From Micrococcales bacterium (GTDB lineage Bacteria; Actinomycetota; Actinomycetes; S36-B12; GCA-2699445): a stretch of DNA of 38,923 nucleotides. The notes beneath the pieces were generated by a model, which did not search any database, was not told the DNA's origin, and saw only the letters and a program-made list of their open reading frames with translations. Below are positions 15,256-23,393 of the stretch, in pieces. The DNA lies in assembly GCA_002699445.1 (NCBI GenBank), contig PAAU01000075.1, positions 1 through 38,923 of the forward strand, given 5' to 3'. A program made the position numbers and the translations under genes. Position 1 is the first letter of the stretch. Each line of letters opens with the position of its first letter.

Positions 15256-16251
15256 TTAGCCAACTTCCGATAAGTGGTCTGGCCCAACATTTTCTGGATC
15301 CCGGAGGGCTTGCACGCTGGTCCGTAACGAGGTTTCCAACACATCGATCCGGCGGGGCAGATCCATCACATTGCCGCCCATCGCCTCTAGATCTTCCGGA
15401 CCGGGACCAATGATGGTGACCTGACAGCCCTTAGAACGCACATTCTCGGCTTCGCGCAGACATCGTTTCGTAACTTGCAACCGCCAACGACGTTCGAGTC
15501 GAGTGAGCAGATGATTCGGACGGTCAAGGTGGAAAGACACCATGGGGGCAAGGACAAAAACTTCGTCTAAGCCTTGCCCGGCAAGAAGATCGACATTGGT
15601 TGCCGACCAGGTACCGCCGTCGATATATTCCCTGTCGCCTATCTTCACCGGGCTAAACCAACCCGGGATGGCGCAGGATGCCATAACGGATTCTGACAAT
15701 GGGGCTACCGGTGCACCGGGCTTCCCAAACGCCACACGTTGGCCATCGGAGTAATCCATAGCGACTATCCATACGTTTGGATGCGGAGACCATTCGTCCA
15801 TAGGCGTCACCGCTTCAACCAAATGGCCAACGCGTGCCAATGACCCGGTACCGACCGGCAGGAAGCCACTGAGTACCGCTGTCGGGGGCATGCTGCGACC
15901 ACGACGCAGGCTGGTCCCTATCAGCTTTGCCGAACCCGGACCAAGGAGGCGTGGTCTTTTCGGACGACCACTCCCCGTCGCTTTCTCATAGTCAAACGAG
16001 TAGCCCGCAAGCGGTCCATCTGTAATCGGGTGACCACGCTGATGAGAGAGCATTTGTTCACTGGATACGCCAGCGCCAAGTAGTGCCGCCAACACGGATC
16101 CGGCTGATGTCCCTGCAAGCACATCACATTCTCGCGGGTCGATACCGTGAACTTCACGCAGCGCGTTCAGGGCCCCGACCATCCATGCCGCCCCAAGTAC
16201 TCCGCCGCCGCCAAGGACTAAGCCCCGGCGGATACTTCGTCGAGCGGCCAT
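15256..16251 (-). CDS. Patatin-like phospholipase
   Basis: The 331-residue protein has the patatin oxyanion loop LGGGGVLGAAW (13-23), the nucleophile elbow GTSAG with S49, and the catalytic aspartate in DGG (D211-G213), so the Ser-Asp dyad is intact. No convincing signal peptide or TM segment is seen, so a cytoplasmic or peripheral location is likely. Such enzymes hydrolyse acyl esters of phospholipids or neutral lipids. ATG 16251 has AAGGTGAG upstream. It follows a WS/DGAT acyltransferase gene by 61 nt on the same strand, suggesting linked synthesis and turnover of storage lipid (inference). Confidence 0.9.
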   Translation of the reverse strand: MAARRSIRRGLVLGGGGVLGAAWMVGALNALREVHGIDPRECDVLAGTSAGSVLAALLGAGVSSEQMLSHQRGHPITDGPLAGYSFDYEKATGSGRPKRPRLLGPGSAKLIGTSLRRGRSMPPTAVLSGFLPVGTGSLARVGHLVEAVTPMDEWSPHPNVWIVAMDYSDGQRVAFGKPGAPVAPLSESVMASCAIPGWFSPVKIGDREYIDGGTWSATNVDLLAGQGLDEVFVLAPMVSFHLDRPNHLLTRLERRWRLQVTKRCLREAENVRSKGCQVTIIGPGPEDLEAMGGNVMDLPRRIDVLETSLRTSVQALRDPENVGPDHLSEVG

Positions 16252-16312
16252 ATTCTCACCTTACGTGTCGAGACAAGAACTCTGCGTAGCGGTCTGGTTA
16301 CAAGCGACTCCG

Positions 16313-17731
16313 CTATGCCTTTACGGTACGCCTTCTGCCACTGGGCGTAGTTGTATCGAGCAATTCGGACAAAGCTGCGACAATACAGTCAGATAGGACA
16401 TCTATGTCAGGCATCGCATCCCGATCGGCATTCAGCCCGAAGTACACTCCTCCGTCATAAGAGGTAAGCCCCACACTGACAGCCTGATTCTTAGCTAATG
16501 GGACCACCGGGTAGGCCGCAACCATTTTCGATCCACCAGCGTAAAGCGGGAATTGAGGTCCTGGAACATTCGTGACTACTAGATTCCACACCCGGCGGGT
16601 TAGGCCGCTAGCAGCGCGAGCTCCTGCCGCATGCAGCGTCGGAGGCGCGAAACCAGTCAGTCCAACCAGAGCTTGAGCACCCATTGCCTGACCGCTCGAC
16701 TTCAACTGACCCATTTCAAAAGCAACTCGTTGAAGCCGCACCACCGGGTCGGGCTCACCGACCGGTAAATCACACAGGAATGCGGCCACATGATTGCCCT
16801 CGGTCGAATCAGTCTCGGGCTGCACACTGACGGGCACGAGTGCGCGCATAGTACTTCGAGGAGATAGGTTCTCGCCTCGAGTCATCAACCACTCACGGAG
16901 TGCACCGGCAAGAACTGCCAGAACCACATCGTTGACCGTACCTCCATGAGCCTTACGGATTCGTTTGTAATCGTCGAGTTGGGTATCAGCGGTACCGTAC
17001 CTGCGCTGCTCCCCAATCTCCACATTCAACGGACTGCTATCGGGTGGTCGAACAACTGTGGCTGCGGCGCTCAAGACCCCAGCCATATTTCTGCCGATCC
17101 CTACCGCACTCTCGCGAACATCACTAAGACCCACCCGGACTGATTCCATGATGGTGGCCGGTGAGCGCAGCGCATCCGCCATGCCACCTGCAAGTAACTC
17201 GAATGACGAAGGTTCTCGAGCCGGGCGCCAGACATCGGTACCCATCTGACGCGGCTCCGGTGTTACGTCAAGAATCACCTGTCCAATATCGACGGCAGCC
17301 ATACCATCAACCATGGCATGGTGACTCTTGGTCAAGATTGCGAAGCGGCCTCCTTCCAGACCTTCGATTAGATACATCTCCCAGAGCGGACGAGCTAGAT
17401 CAAGTGGTCTCGACATGATGCGAGCGACCAGCTCTCTCAGTTGTCCGTCTGTGCCTGGACGCGGAAGAGCCGAACGACGTACGTGATAGGTAACGTCGAA
17501 GGACTCGTCGTCAACCCAGACGGGATTCGCGAACCTACCGGGAACTCGCCGGATCCGTTGCCGATAGCGTGGGACGAAAGCGATACGTGTCCTGATCAAC
17601 TGCACCAGCCGGTCGTGATCGAACCCGTCTGCCGGTGCTTCAAAGACCGCCACGCTGCCAACATGCATCGGTGTTGTCGCTTCCTCCAGGTAGAGGAAAG
17701 ACGCATCGAGCGGGCTCAGCCGGTCTGCCAC
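16313..17731 (-). CDS. WS/DGAT wax ester synthase / diacylglycerol O-acyltransferase
   Basis: The 472-residue protein begins MADRLSPLDASFLYLE, the PLDAxFLxxE signature of actinobacterial WS/DGAT enzymes, and carries the catalytic HHxxxDG motif as HHAMVDG (137-143). A second family motif, NDVVLAVLAGALREWL, lies past the middle, and VVTNVPGPQFPLYAGG near the C terminus. It transfers acyl groups from acyl-CoA to diacylglycerol or fatty alcohols to make triacylglycerol or wax esters at the membrane or lipid droplet. The start is GTG 17731 with AGGAGG 4 nt upstream. It is first in a minus-strand run, with the patatin-like gene after it and the large non-coding gap before it. Confidence 0.95.
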   Translation of the reverse strand: MADRLSPLDASFLYLEEATTPMHVGSVAVFEAPADGFDHDRLVQLIRTRIAFVPRYRQRIRRVPGRFANPVWVDDESFDVTYHVRRSALPRPGTDGQLRELVARIMSRPLDLARPLWEMYLIEGLEGGRFAILTKSHHAMVDGMAAVDIGQVILDVTPEPRQMGTDVWRPAREPSSFELLAGGMADALRSPATIMESVRVGLSDVRESAVGIGRNMAGVLSAAATVVRPPDSSPLNVEIGEQRRYGTADTQLDDYKRIRKAHGGTVNDVVLAVLAGALREWLMTRGENLSPRSTMRALVPVSVQPETDSTEGNHVAAFLCDLPVGEPDPVVRLQRVAFEMGQLKSSGQAMGAQALVGLTGFAPPTLHAAGARAASGLTRRVWNLVVTNVPGPQFPLYAGGSKMVAAYPVVPLAKNQAVSVGLTSYDGGVYFGLNADRDAMPDIDVLSDCIVAALSELLDTTTPSGRRRTVKA

Positions 17732-17854
17732 GAGGCCTCCTGTCGTCTTCTCTAGTATCCACGCGAGTCAGATCGCATTGACGGGGGCATGCCGTGGAGT
17801 TCGCTCAGAACCGCTCGATTTGCCCCTTAAACCCCCGCTGTCCGCACAGGCTAC

Positions 17855-17885
17855 GGATTCTGAATCCCCATAACGGGTGAATCCC
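17855..17885. repeat. TGAATCCC direct repeat overlapping a perfect dyad
   Basis: GGATTC-T-GAATCC (17855-17867) is a perfect inverted repeat. TGAATCCC occurs at 17861-17868 and again at 17878-17885. They lie upstream of the WS/DGAT gene (minus) and upstream of the putative plus-strand RNA, so they could be an operator or part of an RNA structure. No family is assigned. Confidence 0.4.
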
Positions 17886-17934
17886 ACGGTCGGTTGACGC
17901 TTCACGTTGCCATCATCACCCGGACAAAGTCACC

Positions 17935-18264
17935 ATTAGGTGTCCACCTGCGTCGTTGCCCCGACACCCATCTCCAGGCCCCGACCCAGATGGAAACAAG
18001 TTCATAGCGTGAACAGGCAAACGACGGAGTCAGAACTGGTTCCTGCTTTGGTCGCCGATCGCATAGCCGACGGTTCTGTGATTTATGTCCCGAAAGAACG
18101 GTGACTCAGGAAACACACCGGGATCGCAGGAGGATCGGAGACAAGAGAAAGCAACCGATGCCAGGGCTCACCTGTAGTGCTATCGAACAACTCCCGTAGC
18201 GGGTCATACCGCTGCATAGAGCCGGGGCCCTCGCACCCGTAGAGCGAGGGCTCCGGTTTCTTTT
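17935..18264 (+). ncRNA. Putative structured non-coding RNA ending in a strong terminator
   Basis: The gap 17732-18377 has no convincing protein gene. Its right part contains several possible stems on the plus strand: 17939-17944 with 17963-17968, 17968-17973 with 17988-17993, 18031-18038 with 18071-18078, 18088-18092 with 18119-18123, and 18134-18138 with 18155-18159. It ends in an intrinsic terminator at 18221-18264. The flanking genes are both on the minus strand, so a plus-strand terminator implies a plus-strand transcript. The sequence lacks recognisable tmRNA or RNase P core motifs and could be a 6S/Ms1-like or undescribed RNA. Two short frames of about 30 codons (GTG 18009 and ATG 18086) lack Shine-Dalgarno sites and overlap each other. 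The 5' end is unknown and the start given is approximate. Confidence 0.5.
18221..18264 (+). terminator. Strong intrinsic terminator (plus strand)
   Basis: A 14-bp GC-rich stem (18221-18234 with 18244-18257, including two G-U pairs) closes a 9-nt loop and is followed by TTTCTTTT (18257-18264). The T-tract is only on the plus strand, so it terminates plus-strand transcription. Confidence 0.85.
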
Positions 18265-18377
18265 GCGTAGACCGCTCTCAAAACCTGTTTAACGGCTGCC
18301 CCTCAGAGCCGGATCCGACTCTTTAAGTCCTGTGTTGAGGCCGACTTTCCAGGCCACACAACACATCGGCCGGCCGG

Positions 18378-21300
18378 TTAGCCAGACTCCCCCTGCCCCG
18401 CTGAATCCGCATTCACAGCGTTGGCATCAGTCGCCTCAGACTGTTCAGCAAGCTTACGTTCTAAAGCTCTTCCCTCAAGATCCAGATCAGGCAAGATCCG
18501 GTCGAGAAAACCTGGTAACCACCAGGTGCCGCGGTTAAACAACGTGAGGGCAGCGGGGGCCAACAGTAAAACCAAGAAAGCAGCGAACGCCACTGCAGCC
18601 GTCAGGCCGATCCCGAATTGTTTGACAACGGGGTCAGGATTAATAACGAAACTGCCAAACACGCTCATCATGATCAGTGCCGCAGTGACAATCACCTTCG
18701 CGGCACCTGCTACGCCCGCTTTTACAGCCGCCCTAGCGCTTTTCCCGGATGCATGTTCGCCCTGAATCGTACTCATCATGAAGACTTGGTAGTCCATGGA
18801 AAGCCCAAAGAGAGCCGCGAACATCATGAGCGGGACATAACTCACGACAGGAACCGTTCCGTAAGCACTGGGCAATCCGATTGCATCCAGTCCCCAGCCC
18901 CATTGAAAAATCACAGTGACGAGACCAAATGCCGCACAAGCCGCCAAGAGGTTCGCCACGGCCGCCTGTAACGGAATCAGTAGTGATCTAAAGGCGATCA
19001 GCAGCAAAATGGAACTCAATATCGTCACCGTCAGAATCACCAGCAACATCTTCGCCGTGATCATTGCAGCAAGATCAATGTTGGCTGCAGTCGTGCCACC
19101 CACATCGGCAGTCATTCCAGGAGAAAGCGCTGAAGGAATGACCTCCGTGCGTTCTTGCTCTACGAGATCAGCGGTCTCTGGTGCCGCGGGCCGACTCTTG
19201 GCAATCACACTCATCGTTAGAGCCGTACCAGCATCATTAATTTGTGGCGGGGAAACGAGATCAACATCCGACGGTTCAGCCAAGGCCGTCTGCAACTTGA
19301 CGATGCGAGGATCAGTCCCTCGCGCATCGCCGCCAGCTGCCGTCAACTCTTTGGTCAGCTTCTTTTGCAGCTTTTCCGCCTGCGCCTGCTCCGCCTGCGC
19401 CTGCTGTAGTTCGGCCTCCAGTTCGTCTGCACTCTGTTCAAGAGCCGCCGCCGCTGCTTCTAATGCTGCTTTTTCCTGCGCCAACTCACGGCCGGCCGCG
19501 GCCAGTTGAGCTGCCTCGCTCAACAGCTCCTTTTCCGCCGCCGCGAGTCCCGCCGCACTTCTCGCCAAAGCCTTGGCGCCTTGCTCCAGTTGTCGGATTT
19601 CACCACGTAACACTGAAGCCTGCTTAGCCAACTGCTCCAACTGTTGACTATTCGCCCTCAGCTCAGCTCTTAACTCAACCTCCGACTGCTGCAGTTGCGC
19701 CAGTTCTCGTTGCAGCGCAGCCCTGACAACTGGATCTGTCGCTGCATCAATACGAAGATTCAGCTCTCGCTGCCGCAGATCATTGACGGCCAGCTGACGA
19801 AAGGTACGCCGTATCTCGGTGAGGGTTACCTGATCCGCCGGCGAGAGTTGAGCAAGATTCCTTTGCAGCTTCTGCTCAATCCGCTGTTGCCGTTGTTTAG
19901 CCTCGGTCAGTGCCCGATCCAGTAGCCGCTTGATAGCCGGATCACTTGTCCGAGCAATCGCTACTTCCAGTTTCTTTATATCGAGCTCATTTTCGACGGC
20001 GCGAGTGATCAGGCGCTTTTCCTTGACAAAGATTGCCTGGCCCTCGGGTGAGAGTCTCTGCTCCAGTGCGCTGATTTCTTGACGCAGCTCCGCTTCTCGC
20101 TGTTGGGCCTGCGCCAGCTCTCGCTCCAAGGCCTGGATAGCAGCGGGATCATCCGGTTGACTCAAAACGTTGTCGATGAAGGCCTGTTCTACAACATTGA
20201 AGCCAAGCCGGGTCCCTAACTTGATCTCATTGAGCGCAGCACCGTCCGTCTCGGCCGCCAAGGCGGCTACGTCGGCCACAATCTGCTGACGCTCAGCTTT
20301 CAGTTGCTGCTTCTCTTTAGTCAGTTGCCGTGCTTGTTGTGCAAGTTTCTTCTCGGCATTGGCAAGAGTGCCTGCCTCCGCCTCTAATGCAGCCAATCGA
20401 ACGAGCAAAGCGGCTTCCTGCTCCTCCAGCAGAGCTTCTTGTGCCTCCAATGCTGCCTGCTCCGCAGGTAGCGTTTGCTGTGCCTCATCCAACGAAGTTT
20501 TCAGCGACTCGGCTTCGTTGTATTGCTTTTCGTATTTGTCGCTCGGAGTCGCCTTCGGCTTTATGCTCACCGCAACAAGGAGCGGTCCGTTGTAGCCAGG
20601 ACCGAATCCGTCCGACATCAGGTCGTAGGCATCCCGCTCTGAGGTTCCGGGAGGCGATACCGACAAATCCTCTTGACCCAAGGTCATGGAGGTGACTGGG
20701 ATCGCTAAGGGAATCAGCAAGAGTGCAGCTACCAGAGCGCTGGCCCAGGGCCGCCTAGTAACCAACGTTGCCCAGCGGGTGGCAATGGGGTGATCGGTTC
20801 GCCGCCCCACAAATGGCAACCGTAAAGCTCCGATTCCTCCTCCGATAATGGCCAGTACCGCGGGAAGTAACGTCACTGCCGCCAGCACGGCGCCCACCAC
20901 TGCCACTGCTGCGGCAAGTCCAAGCGCTGCGATGAACGGAATACCAGCTACCTGAAGCGATACCAGCGCGATTACCACGGTGCTACCCGCAAAGATGATC
21001 GCACCACCGCTAGTAGCTACGGCCCGACCAGCTGCCACTTTGGGATCCAAGCCGTCGCCCAAGACGTAACTTCGGTATCGAGTTACCAGAAAGAGCGCGT
21101 AGTCAATCCCAACTCCCAGACCAATCATTCGGGCAATAGTCACGCCGATAGACGGGGTATCTACGACAGTTCCCAAAACCCAAATACCGGAAAGCCCGAG
21201 GAGGAGGCCAAATACTGCCGACATCAGTGGCATACCCATTGCGACCAAGCTGCCAAATGAAATCGTGAGGATGATGCCCGCCGCTATGACTCCCAACTTC

Positions 21301-21845
21301 TCGCTGTTGCCTGTATCTGGCTGAGATAAGACGCTGCCAATCGGGCCGCCTACGGCCGCTTCTAGTCCTACTCCTTGCGGTCCGGTTGTAGCGGTCTCGT
21401 ACAACTCCTCTGCAATCTCTTCAGTTAACTGCTGAGAGTCCAAGTCAAGCAAGATCGGGATAAATGCGTACTTACCGTCTTTACTGACGAATCCTGCCGC
21501 AGGCTGCTCAAACGGGTTGGTTACCGAATTGACGCCGTCTTGCTTCTTCAGCGCCTTGTAGGCGTCAGTTATAGCCTTCTGATTCTTACCCCCGTCATCG
21601 ACTTTCCCTTTAGCTGCGTAATACACCGCTGGTGAGGTGCCGTTTTGCTGGGGTGGGAACTCCTGGGTGAGCAGATCGGTAGCGGCCTGACTCTCGGTCC
21701 CAGGCAAGGACACTGAGTTGTTTGTGGTCGGACCCAAGATCCCGGTCAAGGCGGTCAGACCCACAACCAGGACAAGCCAGACCGCTAAGACAGCCCAACG
21801 AAACTGCGCGCAAAATGCGCCCACTCGTCCGAGGGCTTCACCCAT
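18378..21845 (-). CDS. MMPL/RND-family transporter with a very long extracytoplasmic coiled coil
   Basis: The 1155-residue protein has the MMPL layout: TM1 (17-37), a first extracytoplasmic domain (40-180), TM2-6 (183-340), TM7 (368-388), a second extracytoplasmic loop (390-925) and TM8-12 (928-1105). Charged TM residues typical of the family appear in GLGVGIDYALFLVTRYR and FGLSMDYQVFMM. The second loop is swollen by an Ala/Gln/Glu/Leu-rich coiled coil (about 437-840). Its middle part is a tandem repeat with an exact 69-residue period: DP at 566, 635 and 704, LSP at 598 and 667. Family members export lipids or drugs using the proton gradient. ATG 21845 follows GGTAGG. A -35/-10 pair with an internal palindrome lies just upstream. 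The cargo is unknown. Confidence 0.93.
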   Translation of the reverse strand: MGEALGRVGAFCAQFRWAVLAVWLVLVVGLTALTGILGPTTNNSVSLPGTESQAATDLLTQEFPPQQNGTSPAVYYAAKGKVDDGGKNQKAITDAYKALKKQDGVNSVTNPFEQPAAGFVSKDGKYAFIPILLDLDSQQLTEEIAEELYETATTGPQGVGLEAAVGGPIGSVLSQPDTGNSEKLGVIAAGIILTISFGSLVAMGMPLMSAVFGLLLGLSGIWVLGTVVDTPSIGVTIARMIGLGVGIDYALFLVTRYRSYVLGDGLDPKVAAGRAVATSGGAIIFAGSTVVIALVSLQVAGIPFIAALGLAAAVAVVGAVLAAVTLLPAVLAIIGGGIGALRLPFVGRRTDHPIATRWATLVTRRPWASALVAALLLIPLAIPVTSMTLGQEDLSVSPPGTSERDAYDLMSDGFGPGYNGPLLVAVSIKPKATPSDKYEKQYNEAESLKTSLDEAQQTLPAEQAALEAQEALLEEQEAALLVRLAALEAEAGTLANAEKKLAQQARQLTKEKQQLKAERQQIVADVAALAAETDGAALNEIKLGTRLGFNVVEQAFIDNVLSQPDDPAAIQALERELAQAQQREAELRQEISALEQRLSPEGQAIFVKEKRLITRAVENELDIKKLEVAIARTSDPAIKRLLDRALTEAKQRQQRIEQKLQRNLAQLSPADQVTLTEIRRTFRQLAVNDLRQRELNLRIDAATDPVVRAALQRELAQLQQSEVELRAELRANSQQLEQLAKQASVLRGEIRQLEQGAKALARSAAGLAAAEKELLSEAAQLAAAGRELAQEKAALEAAAAALEQSADELEAELQQAQAEQAQAEKLQKKLTKELTAAGGDARGTDPRIVKLQTALAEPSDVDLVSPPQINDAGTALTMSVIAKSRPAAPETADLVEQERTEVIPSALSPGMTADVGGTTAANIDLAAMITAKMLLVILTVTILSSILLLIAFRSLLIPLQAAVANLLAACAAFGLVTVIFQWGWGLDAIGLPSAYGTVPVVSYVPLMMFAALFGLSMDYQVFMMSTIQGEHASGKSARAAVKAGVAGAAKVIVTAALIMMSVFGSFVINPDPVVKQFGIGLTAAVAFAAFLVLLLAPAALTLFNRGTWWLPGFLDRILPDLDLEGRALERKLAEQSEATDANAVNADSAGQGESG

Positions 21846-21858
21846 CCTGTTACCTACC

Positions 21859-21888
21859 CTTAGAGACTTCTCGGCAAAAGTCTGTCAC
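21859..21888 (-). promoter_or_regulatory. MMPL gene promoter with internal operator-like palindrome
   Basis: On the minus strand GTGACA (21888-21883) and TCTAAG (21864-21859) are separated by 18 bp. The spacer is nearly filled by AGACTT-N8-AAGTCT (21864-21883), a perfect 6+6 inverted repeat. This is the position expected for a TetR-type repressor site on an efflux-pump promoter. No regulator gene lies next to it. The predicted start would leave a leader of only about 7 nt before the ATG. Confidence 0.45.
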
Positions 21889-21979
21889 TTGTTCCAGTGC
21901 CGGTAAGGCGCATCCACATTTTGGATGGTTCCCGCGGCGTGGTCGCAGCTGAGCAACTTTCGCACTCGTCAGAATAACG

Positions 21980-23107
21980 TCATCTCACCGAGGCCACTTG
22001 GGCAACCGAAGCGGGGGGCATCAGCGGTGGCAAGGACCGGAGCCCCTCGCGTAGCTCACACTCTGGAGCGACGACTCGCAATGGTCCCGCCTCCCGATTC
22101 ATTGCCGCCGCCGCTACTTCATCCTCTGGAAGAATGGCAAAGCCCACTCCCGTTCCCGCCAGTGCCGATGCTTCTCGCAATCTAGCGACCGGGTCAGCAC
22201 CCAATGCCGCGACGCCTAAACCACCGACGCCATTCCAAATCAAAGTAACCACTCCAGAGAGCACCGGTCGATGGCGTGCCCACCATCGAGTCAGTCGATG
22301 CATTCCAAGTGCGGTCGGTGCGGCCACTACTGCAACACCGTCAGCTCGGGCAACTGCGGCGGCAGACCAGTCAGACAGATCGCCACTGCCACAGTCCAAA
22401 ACGGTCACTTCAGCACACTCACGACTAATCTCGGTTAGGACCGGCAGCGTCCCCGCTAGCGATATCAATGTTTCTTGATCTGAGGAACCGGTGGCTAGCA
22501 GGATCTCGCCCGCAACCGGTGCTAGACACATCCGCCAACTTTCGCGATCGATTGTTCCTACTTGTCCCTGCGCGAGGGCAGCCAGGAGACCCGAAGGCTC
22601 CTCGCGAACGCCAAGCAGAAAGGCTTGGGAGGGACTTCGAGGGTCGGCATCGATAAGTACAGCCTCACTCGTGGTCTCGGCCGCCACATTCGCGGCAACA
22701 GTCGAGATCCCGGGTGAGCCCGCAGGTCCGCACACCGCCAGCACCTGTCCAGAACCACGTTGCAAGTACTCCGGCTGATCCAAAGCTGATGCAATCCCTT
22801 CCGCTGAACCATCGCACAGCGCAACTCTTAAAGATTCCGCCCGTGATCGATCCGACGGTAATTCTGGGGACCCAACTAGGAGACAGCGAGCGCCAGTTCC
22901 CGTCAGCCGGGAGAACAGCTCTGAGTTGGCTCCCAAGAATTTCACCGATACCAGCACCACTTCCGGTCGGAGGGCGGTCACTGCGCTCGCTAACTCCACG
23001 GGGTCAGTGGTCTCGCGCAAGATCAAGAACTGTGAATTCGACCGGCGCAACGGTTTCAACCAGCCCGACTCGCTATCAGCTCCTACTACGACAGACACCG
23101 GACGCAT
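21980..23107 (-). CDS. CpaE/SSD-like P-loop protein with degenerate Walker A
   Basis: The 375-residue protein has an N-terminal receiver-like domain (about 1-115) and a MinD/ParA-like ATPase domain (about 120-360), the architecture of CpaE and the mycobacterial septum-site-determining protein SSD. The expected deviant Walker A is GPAGSPGIST (127-136), without the invariant lysines, while the following VLIDADPRSPS (150-160) and VTVLDCGSGD are conserved. Nucleotide hydrolysis is therefore doubtful. ATG 23107 has GGGAG upstream. In mycobacteria the SSD gene heads a tad pilus cluster; here no tad genes follow. It is divergent from a small HTH gene, 64 nt away. A role in cell-pole or septum positioning is inferred from family only. 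Confidence 0.75.
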   Translation of the reverse strand: MRPVSVVVGADSESGWLKPLRRSNSQFLILRETTDPVELASAVTALRPEVVLVSVKFLGANSELFSRLTGTGARCLLVGSPELPSDRSRAESLRVALCDGSAEGIASALDQPEYLQRGSGQVLAVCGPAGSPGISTVAANVAAETTSEAVLIDADPRSPSQAFLLGVREEPSGLLAALAQGQVGTIDRESWRMCLAPVAGEILLATGSSDQETLISLAGTLPVLTEISRECAEVTVLDCGSGDLSDWSAAAVARADGVAVVAAPTALGMHRLTRWWARHRPVLSGVVTLIWNGVGGLGVAALGADPVARLREASALAGTGVGFAILPEDEVAAAAMNREAGPLRVVAPECELREGLRSLPPLMPPASVAQVASVR

Positions 23108-23171
23108 GATTATCTCCCTAAAAACTACCCAGAATCCGGCACTACGTCGGAGTCCATGCCAGCATTAGATC

Positions 23172-23393
23172 GTGGTCAATCATTTTCTTACGCTGGCGGA
23201 TGTTGCAGATGTGCTGAACATCTCAGCCGACCAGGCCTATTCCTTGGTGCGAAGCGGAGAGTTGCGAGCAATCAAGGTTGGCGGTCGAGGGCAATGGCGC
23301 ATCGGCGAAAACGATCTCGAAGACTACATTCAACGGATGTACGCGCAGACAGAAGAATCAATCAAGACACCTGATCAGACGACGGACGTCTAG
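23172..23393 (+). CDS. Excisionase/BldC-like helix-turn-helix protein
   Basis: The 73-residue protein is a single winged HTH of the excisionase/MerR-like type: LTLADVADVLNISADQAYSLVRSGELRAIKVGG is followed by GQWRIGENDLEDYIQRM. Chromosomal actinobacterial members, such as BldC, bind DNA as small regulators rather than phage excisionases. No phage genes are nearby. The start is GTG 23172 with no clear Shine-Dalgarno, so the transcript may be leaderless or poorly translated. It is divergent from the CpaE-like gene, and its last 32 nt overlap the 3' end of the next gene on the opposite strand. Confidence 0.85.
   Translation: MVNHFLTLADVADVLNISADQAYSLVRSGELRAIKVGGRGQWRIGENDLEDYIQRMYAQTEESIKTPDQTTDV

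Follow-up and report, generated by a model that had tools for sequence, protein, structure and literature searches.

A previously undescribed structured small RNA predicted upstream of a wax ester synthase gene in one family of uncultured Nanopelagicales

We analysed a stretch of actinobacterial DNA of 38,923 nucleotides (hereafter, the window) and found that a non-coding gap within it, at 17732-18377, very probably holds the gene for a previously undescribed, stand-alone structured small RNA of approximately 325 nt, with transcription predicted from the plus strand. So far, the RNA is known from only one family of uncultured actinobacteria, family f1 of the order Candidatus Nanopelagicales (Actinomycetota), for which eight genomes from five genera were compared. 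Computation shows a conserved structure at a conserved position, with no conserved reading frame and no known RNA family. A first-pass annotation had read the gap as an undescribed structured RNA ending at a plus-strand terminator. This reading gains support from sequence conservation ending at the terminator, compensatory changes, a consensus fold whose stability far exceeds that of column shuffles, and a similar locus in all eight family genomes.

The gap is flanked by two minus-strand genes, as previously annotated, and Pfam matches assign these to WS/DGAT and MMPL proteins. No open reading frame of at least 60 amino acids lies wholly inside 17756-18331 on either strand. The features of the locus are as follows:

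16313-17731, minus strand: wax ester synthase/DGAT gene (WS/DGAT; Pfam PF03007)
17857-17884, plus strand: conserved element CTACGGATTC..CATAACGGGTGAATCC upstream of the RNA gene, with a proposed role as its activator site
17907-17912, plus strand: putative -35 box TTGCCA, of which TTGC is conserved in all eight aligned family loci
17931-17936, plus strand: weak candidate -10 box CACCAT (nAnnnT form), from the family alignment
17943-18264, plus strand: structured small RNA, from its predicted 5' end to the terminator as 3' end, based on the conservation block, fold, covariation and consensus energy
17968-17993, plus strand: short 5' hairpin CCAUCU/AGAUGG of the consensus fold, with two outer pairs broken in G001
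18000-18188, plus strand: long hairpin, imperfect and with internal loops, closed by GUUCAUAGCGUG / UAGUGCUAUCGAAC
18196-18215, plus strand: short 3' hairpin GUAGCGG/CCGCUGC, invariant and hence without covariation
18221-18264, plus strand: intrinsic terminator with a 14-bp stem carrying compensatory changes, loop ACCCGUAGA and a U-rich tail
18378-21845, minus strand: MMPL transporter gene (Pfam PF03176)

The MMPL gene is missing from the locus in G001, where WS/DGAT and a CpaE/Ssd-like gene are the immediate neighbours of the RNA; because the RNA is still present there, it is independent of MMPL. More broadly, the order patatin, WS/DGAT, (RNA), Ssd/CpaE-like, HTH_17 (15256-23393 in the window) is conserved in several genomes of the order. 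The gap between WS/DGAT and Ssd in f2, f5 and f7 genomes consists of other coding frames or almost nothing, and the RNA is not there.

Using BLAST, the RNA element was matched in both other genomes compared from the window's genus, g1 (G001 and G002). Identity to G002 was 69% over 17732-17856, 96% across the upstream element, 60% over 17885-17942, and 88-96% from 17943 to the terminator, dropping to 43% past it. Short conserved boxes with loose spacers, followed by a solid block that ends at the terminator, are as expected for a promoter and its RNA gene. The three g1 genomes share one stretch, GACACCCATCTCCAGG, without any difference. The remaining five family genomes showed little or no likeness by BLAST; all eight carry a divergent non-coding gap of similar size in the same place, upstream of WS/DGAT. 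In the other five, GGGTGAA and the TTGC box are found in this gap on the same strand as a strong hairpin located approximately 500-690 nt from the WS/DGAT start, while the sequence between the shared boxes and the hairpin is largely rewritten. The RNA region had no match in phage records.

GGGTGAA is present in all eight family genomes, and the longer pattern CGGGTGAA-N23-CGTTGC occurs once per genome in five of them, every time at the RNA locus. The proposed -10 box sits 17-18 nt past the -35 box, and across the family loci the distance from the upstream element to the RNA is steadier than that to WS/DGAT.

Folded as a single sequence, positions 17943-18268 (326 nt) gave z = -4.19, with 0/100 shuffles as good. 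With the three g1 sequences as input, RNAalifold placed a short hairpin on either side of a long imperfect one, followed by the terminator. When all 326 nt were folded as a single sequence, the result differed from this consensus and lacked the long hairpin. The stems that the first-pass annotation had placed before the terminator are therefore present but not purely local, as the consensus joins them in the long hairpin at 18000-18188. The comparison with relatives proposed in that annotation revealed paired changes that keep stems, with compensatory changes in helices 3, 4, 5, 6 and 8 of the long hairpin. In the g1 alignment, 95.5% of cells pair in the named structure, which contains 8 double-changed pairs compared to 3.0 (SD 1.3) in shuffles (0/500 reach 8), and only 0-1 when pairing partners were slid. 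Refolding column shuffles of the three-sequence alignment gave a number of compensatory pairs similar to that of the real one, which leaves the named-structure control as the only clear one. The g1 consensus energy was -62.1, compared to -38.2 (SD 4.5) for column shuffles, and the corresponding values for G004 and G007, both of genus g3, were -69.6 and -42.7 (SD 4.7). Between G004 and G007, a single helix is kept through three adjacent double changes. Their fold has two domains, with the widest pair spanning 0.58-0.59 of the length versus 0.84 in g1.

The terminator stem comprises 14 pairs, two of them G-T, with arms at 18221-18234 and 18244-18257, a loop of 9, and the tail TTTCTTTT at 18257-18264 on the plus strand, which bears out the annotated 14-bp hairpin with a T tail as a plus-strand terminator. 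The hairpin (18221-18257) is the longest terminator-like hairpin of the window; a terminator scan with a loop limit of 8 missed it because its loop is longer than the limit. Twenty dinucleotide shuffles of the whole window contained 4 hairpins with at least 14 pairs, so that, taken alone, the terminator hairpin exceeds chance only moderately. Strong hairpins occur in the same place and on the same strand in all eight family loci. Genera g1 and g3 retain CCCGUA in the loop despite changes in the surrounding stem; the loop motif was not found in G003, G005 or G006.

We considered it very unlikely that the conserved block is instead regulatory DNA, a leader of the minus-strand WS/DGAT gene, or a protein remnant, with no RNA gene at all. 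The minus strand of 18050-18096 reads FRDINHRTVGYAIGD, similar to the GGDEF-domain motif FRDINDSLGHAVGD (L004/L009), and this 47-nt match to an antisense GGDEF gene has an E value of 1.2e-4. A protein remnant was what the first-pass annotation had named as evidence against an RNA. However, the GGDEF-like frame is broken in G001, where the RNA structure is kept, and we rejected it as a preserved reading frame. A 44-aa minus-strand frame is common to the window and G002, but the differences in it are mostly amino-acid-changing. Folding energy supports the plus orientation in g1 only (-62 for the plus strand versus -44 for the minus), whereas the two strands fold about equally well in G004 and G007. 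The hairpin and T-rich tail at the plus-strand end of the block, together with the closer tie of the upstream element to the RNA than to WS/DGAT, also argue for an RNA gene.

A search with Rfam covariance models had been suggested for the gap, and Rfam 15 returned nothing above gathering scores in the window or in seven relatives. ARAGORN likewise found no known RNA, and no tRNA, in the window. The RNA region matched neither tmRNA nor RNase P RNA (ARAGORN, Rfam RF00010), in agreement with the first-pass annotation, and in all eight family genomes RNase P RNA is encoded at another place. A weak likeness to Pseudomon-1/ErsA (RF01719; 24.9 bits, E 0.017, against a gathering score of 50) was confined to the area around the terminator, and this candidate was rejected. 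The 6S covariance model (RF00013) had no match in the window or in six family genomes searched, while five control genomes were matched. 6S RNA also forms a long hairpin with internal loops, but measures approximately 190 nt in Rfam compared to approximately 325 nt here; judged by sequence, the RNA is not 6S. Corynebacterium lacks both Ms1 and 6S and has an unrelated RNA polymerase-binding RNA, CoRP (PMC11077062). Compared by description, CoRP and the f1 RNA are both structured and limited to one lineage lacking Ms1 and 6S; however, CoRP is 516 nt long and lies among tRNA genes, and it binds RNA polymerase, as the f1 RNA may also do.

In the published description, Ms1 forms a long hairpin that contains a bubble, has a short hairpin close to either end, and reaches its terminator approximately 304 nt from the start (PMC4191392). 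Ms1 RNAs include Ms1 of M. smegmatis, MTS2823 of M. tuberculosis and scr3559 of S. coelicolor. Ms1 had no Rfam match; other actinomycetes were instead examined for it in the gaps that follow HAD-IB genes. From canonical loci we derived a hallmark, ACCCACGCGG ... GCACGCYTGGTAAC, which in the form ACCCACG[CT] ... GCACGC[CTA][TA]GGT is 77-169 nt long and extends from mycobacteria-like to many other actinomycete loci (L132-L153, L194-L204, L208-L209, L224-L226); Streptomyces-like loci carry GGACGCYTGGTAACC. A model, R1, was built from 15 canonical loci, among them G009 of f3, and among Nanopelagicales it recovers Ms1 from families f3, f4 and f7 with a best E of 1e-8 (L229, L231-L237, L239-L242 and L244; matches near position 1513, or near 186 in L234). 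The published Ms1 table (PMC9130861) is without Nanopelagicales. The Ms1 match of G013 from f7 (C28) lies on a different contig from that of the best HAD-IB genes.

None of the eight f1 genomes gave a convincing match to model R1; a weak one in G007 (E 0.09) was dismissed because its surroundings are not Ms1-like. The window itself has neither a match to R1 nor the hallmark. Nor does the locus show the gene arrangement of Ms1, which follows a HAD-IB hydrolase gene beside an Ssd/CpaE gene; here the RNA lies beside WS/DGAT instead. We also dropped identification as Ms1 by synteny with the Ssd/CpaE-like gene: G004 has its Ssd-like/HAD neighbourhood at a separate place, with no Ms1 after the HAD gene, and in the f2, f5 and f7 genomes that were read, the interval from Ssd to WS/DGAT showed coding frames alone or was very short. 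Given the lack of hallmark and model match and the foreign gene order, membership in Ms1 was rejected; on these grounds the RNA is not canonical Ms1. The two RNAs are nevertheless alike in being single transcription units (predicted for the f1 RNA) of approximately 300 nt with a long imperfect hairpin, end hairpins and an intrinsic terminator, a build found in the window's genus, from which the two-domain fold of G004 and G007 departs. Of the options given in the first-pass annotation, a 6S/Ms1-like RNA or a new class, a new family thus stands by sequence and a 6S/Ms1-like build by structure, while a recognisable 6S or Ms1 does not.

A further likeness lies upstream. Three f3 Ms1 genes (G021, G025, G041) carry the CGGGTGAA element 97 nt upstream of the hallmark, where 0.0026 sites are expected per 150 nt, although this was spotted post hoc, after looking. 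The element lies approximately 57 nt upstream of the proposed -10 box in f1 and approximately 47 nt in f3, a difference of one helical turn as counted by eye. This hints that one regulator may drive both the f1 RNA and f3 Ms1. The f7 Ms1 genes showed no conservation of an upstream element among them.

Our tentative best explanation is that the f1 RNA binds RNA polymerase and works like Ms1, 6S and CoRP. It would be transcribed from its own promoter, with the element at 17857-17884 and boxes near 17907 and 17931, and the transcript of approximately 325 nt would stop at the intrinsic terminator. The long double-stranded hairpin with its internal loops could then lie in the nucleic-acid channel of the polymerase, core or holoenzyme, and the bound RNA would store or idle polymerase when growth slows, standing in for Ms1 in family f1. 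We counted in favour of this the architecture shared with published Ms1 (PMC4191392), the failure to find 6S in the six f1 genomes searched or a convincing Ms1 in all eight, while f3, f4 and f7 have Ms1, the CGGGTGAA element of the three f3 genes, and the precedent of CoRP (PMC11077062). Against it, we counted the missing hallmark, the two-domain g3 fold, the single-sequence fold lacking the long hairpin, the compensatory pairs in refolded column shuffles, the post hoc recognition of the shared element, and families f2, f5 and f6, in which our searches found neither the f1 RNA nor Ms1, so a lineage can live without either. Ms1 persists in sister families but seems to have been lost in f1. It is conceivable, if doubtful, that a non-homologous polymerase-binding RNA replaced it there under the same upstream regulator, which together with Ms1 and CoRP would make three actinobacterial types. 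That the RNA is instead a true Ms1, homologous by descent but relocated and very diverged, appears improbable: the overall build, the shared CGGGTGAA element and the lack of a recognisable Ms1 in f1 would all fit, but the hallmark is missing, although f3 and loci ranging from mycobacteria-like to Streptomyces-like retain it, the gene order differs, the Ssd-like/HAD neighbourhood of G004 is elsewhere and empty of Ms1, and the f3 RNA is much shorter (<200 nt by eye).

Regulation of mRNAs by base pairing is common among bacterial intergenic small RNAs. A trans-acting RNA of this kind, pairing for example through the C-rich loop ACCCGUA and the conserved ACACCCAUCUCC, is possible and nearly as likely as a polymerase binder. 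Both sequences resemble anti-Shine-Dalgarno seeds, and the retention of CCCGUA in g1 and g3 despite a changing stem, as well as the identity of GACACCCATCTCCAGG across three g1 genomes, would suit such a role. However, the loop motif is missing in G003, G005 and G006, some bases of the conserved stretch are predicted to be paired within the 5' hairpin, and the RNA is long and heavily paired for one that acts by seed pairing.

To our knowledge, 6S RNA is largely missing from Actinobacteria, where Ms1 and, in Corynebacterium, CoRP fill its place. If the f1 RNA is a further independent solution, bacteria would appear to keep reinventing RNA control of polymerase; even otherwise, it adds a new family of small RNAs from an uncultured lineage that has been little studied. 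The hallmark and model presented here extend Ms1 to Nanopelagicales, and the hallmark should be useful for a covariance model.

Two minor observations concern the locus itself. Upstream ACGGGTG (17873-17881 in the window) is perfectly complementary to CACCCGT of the terminator loop (18236-18242); this 7-bp pairing, absent in G003, G005 and G006 and found with wobble pairs in g1 and g3, was left as a curiosity. The MMPL protein (18378-21845) is 1155 aa long and contains, mid-protein, a very long Glu/Gln/Leu-rich, coiled-coil-like stretch.
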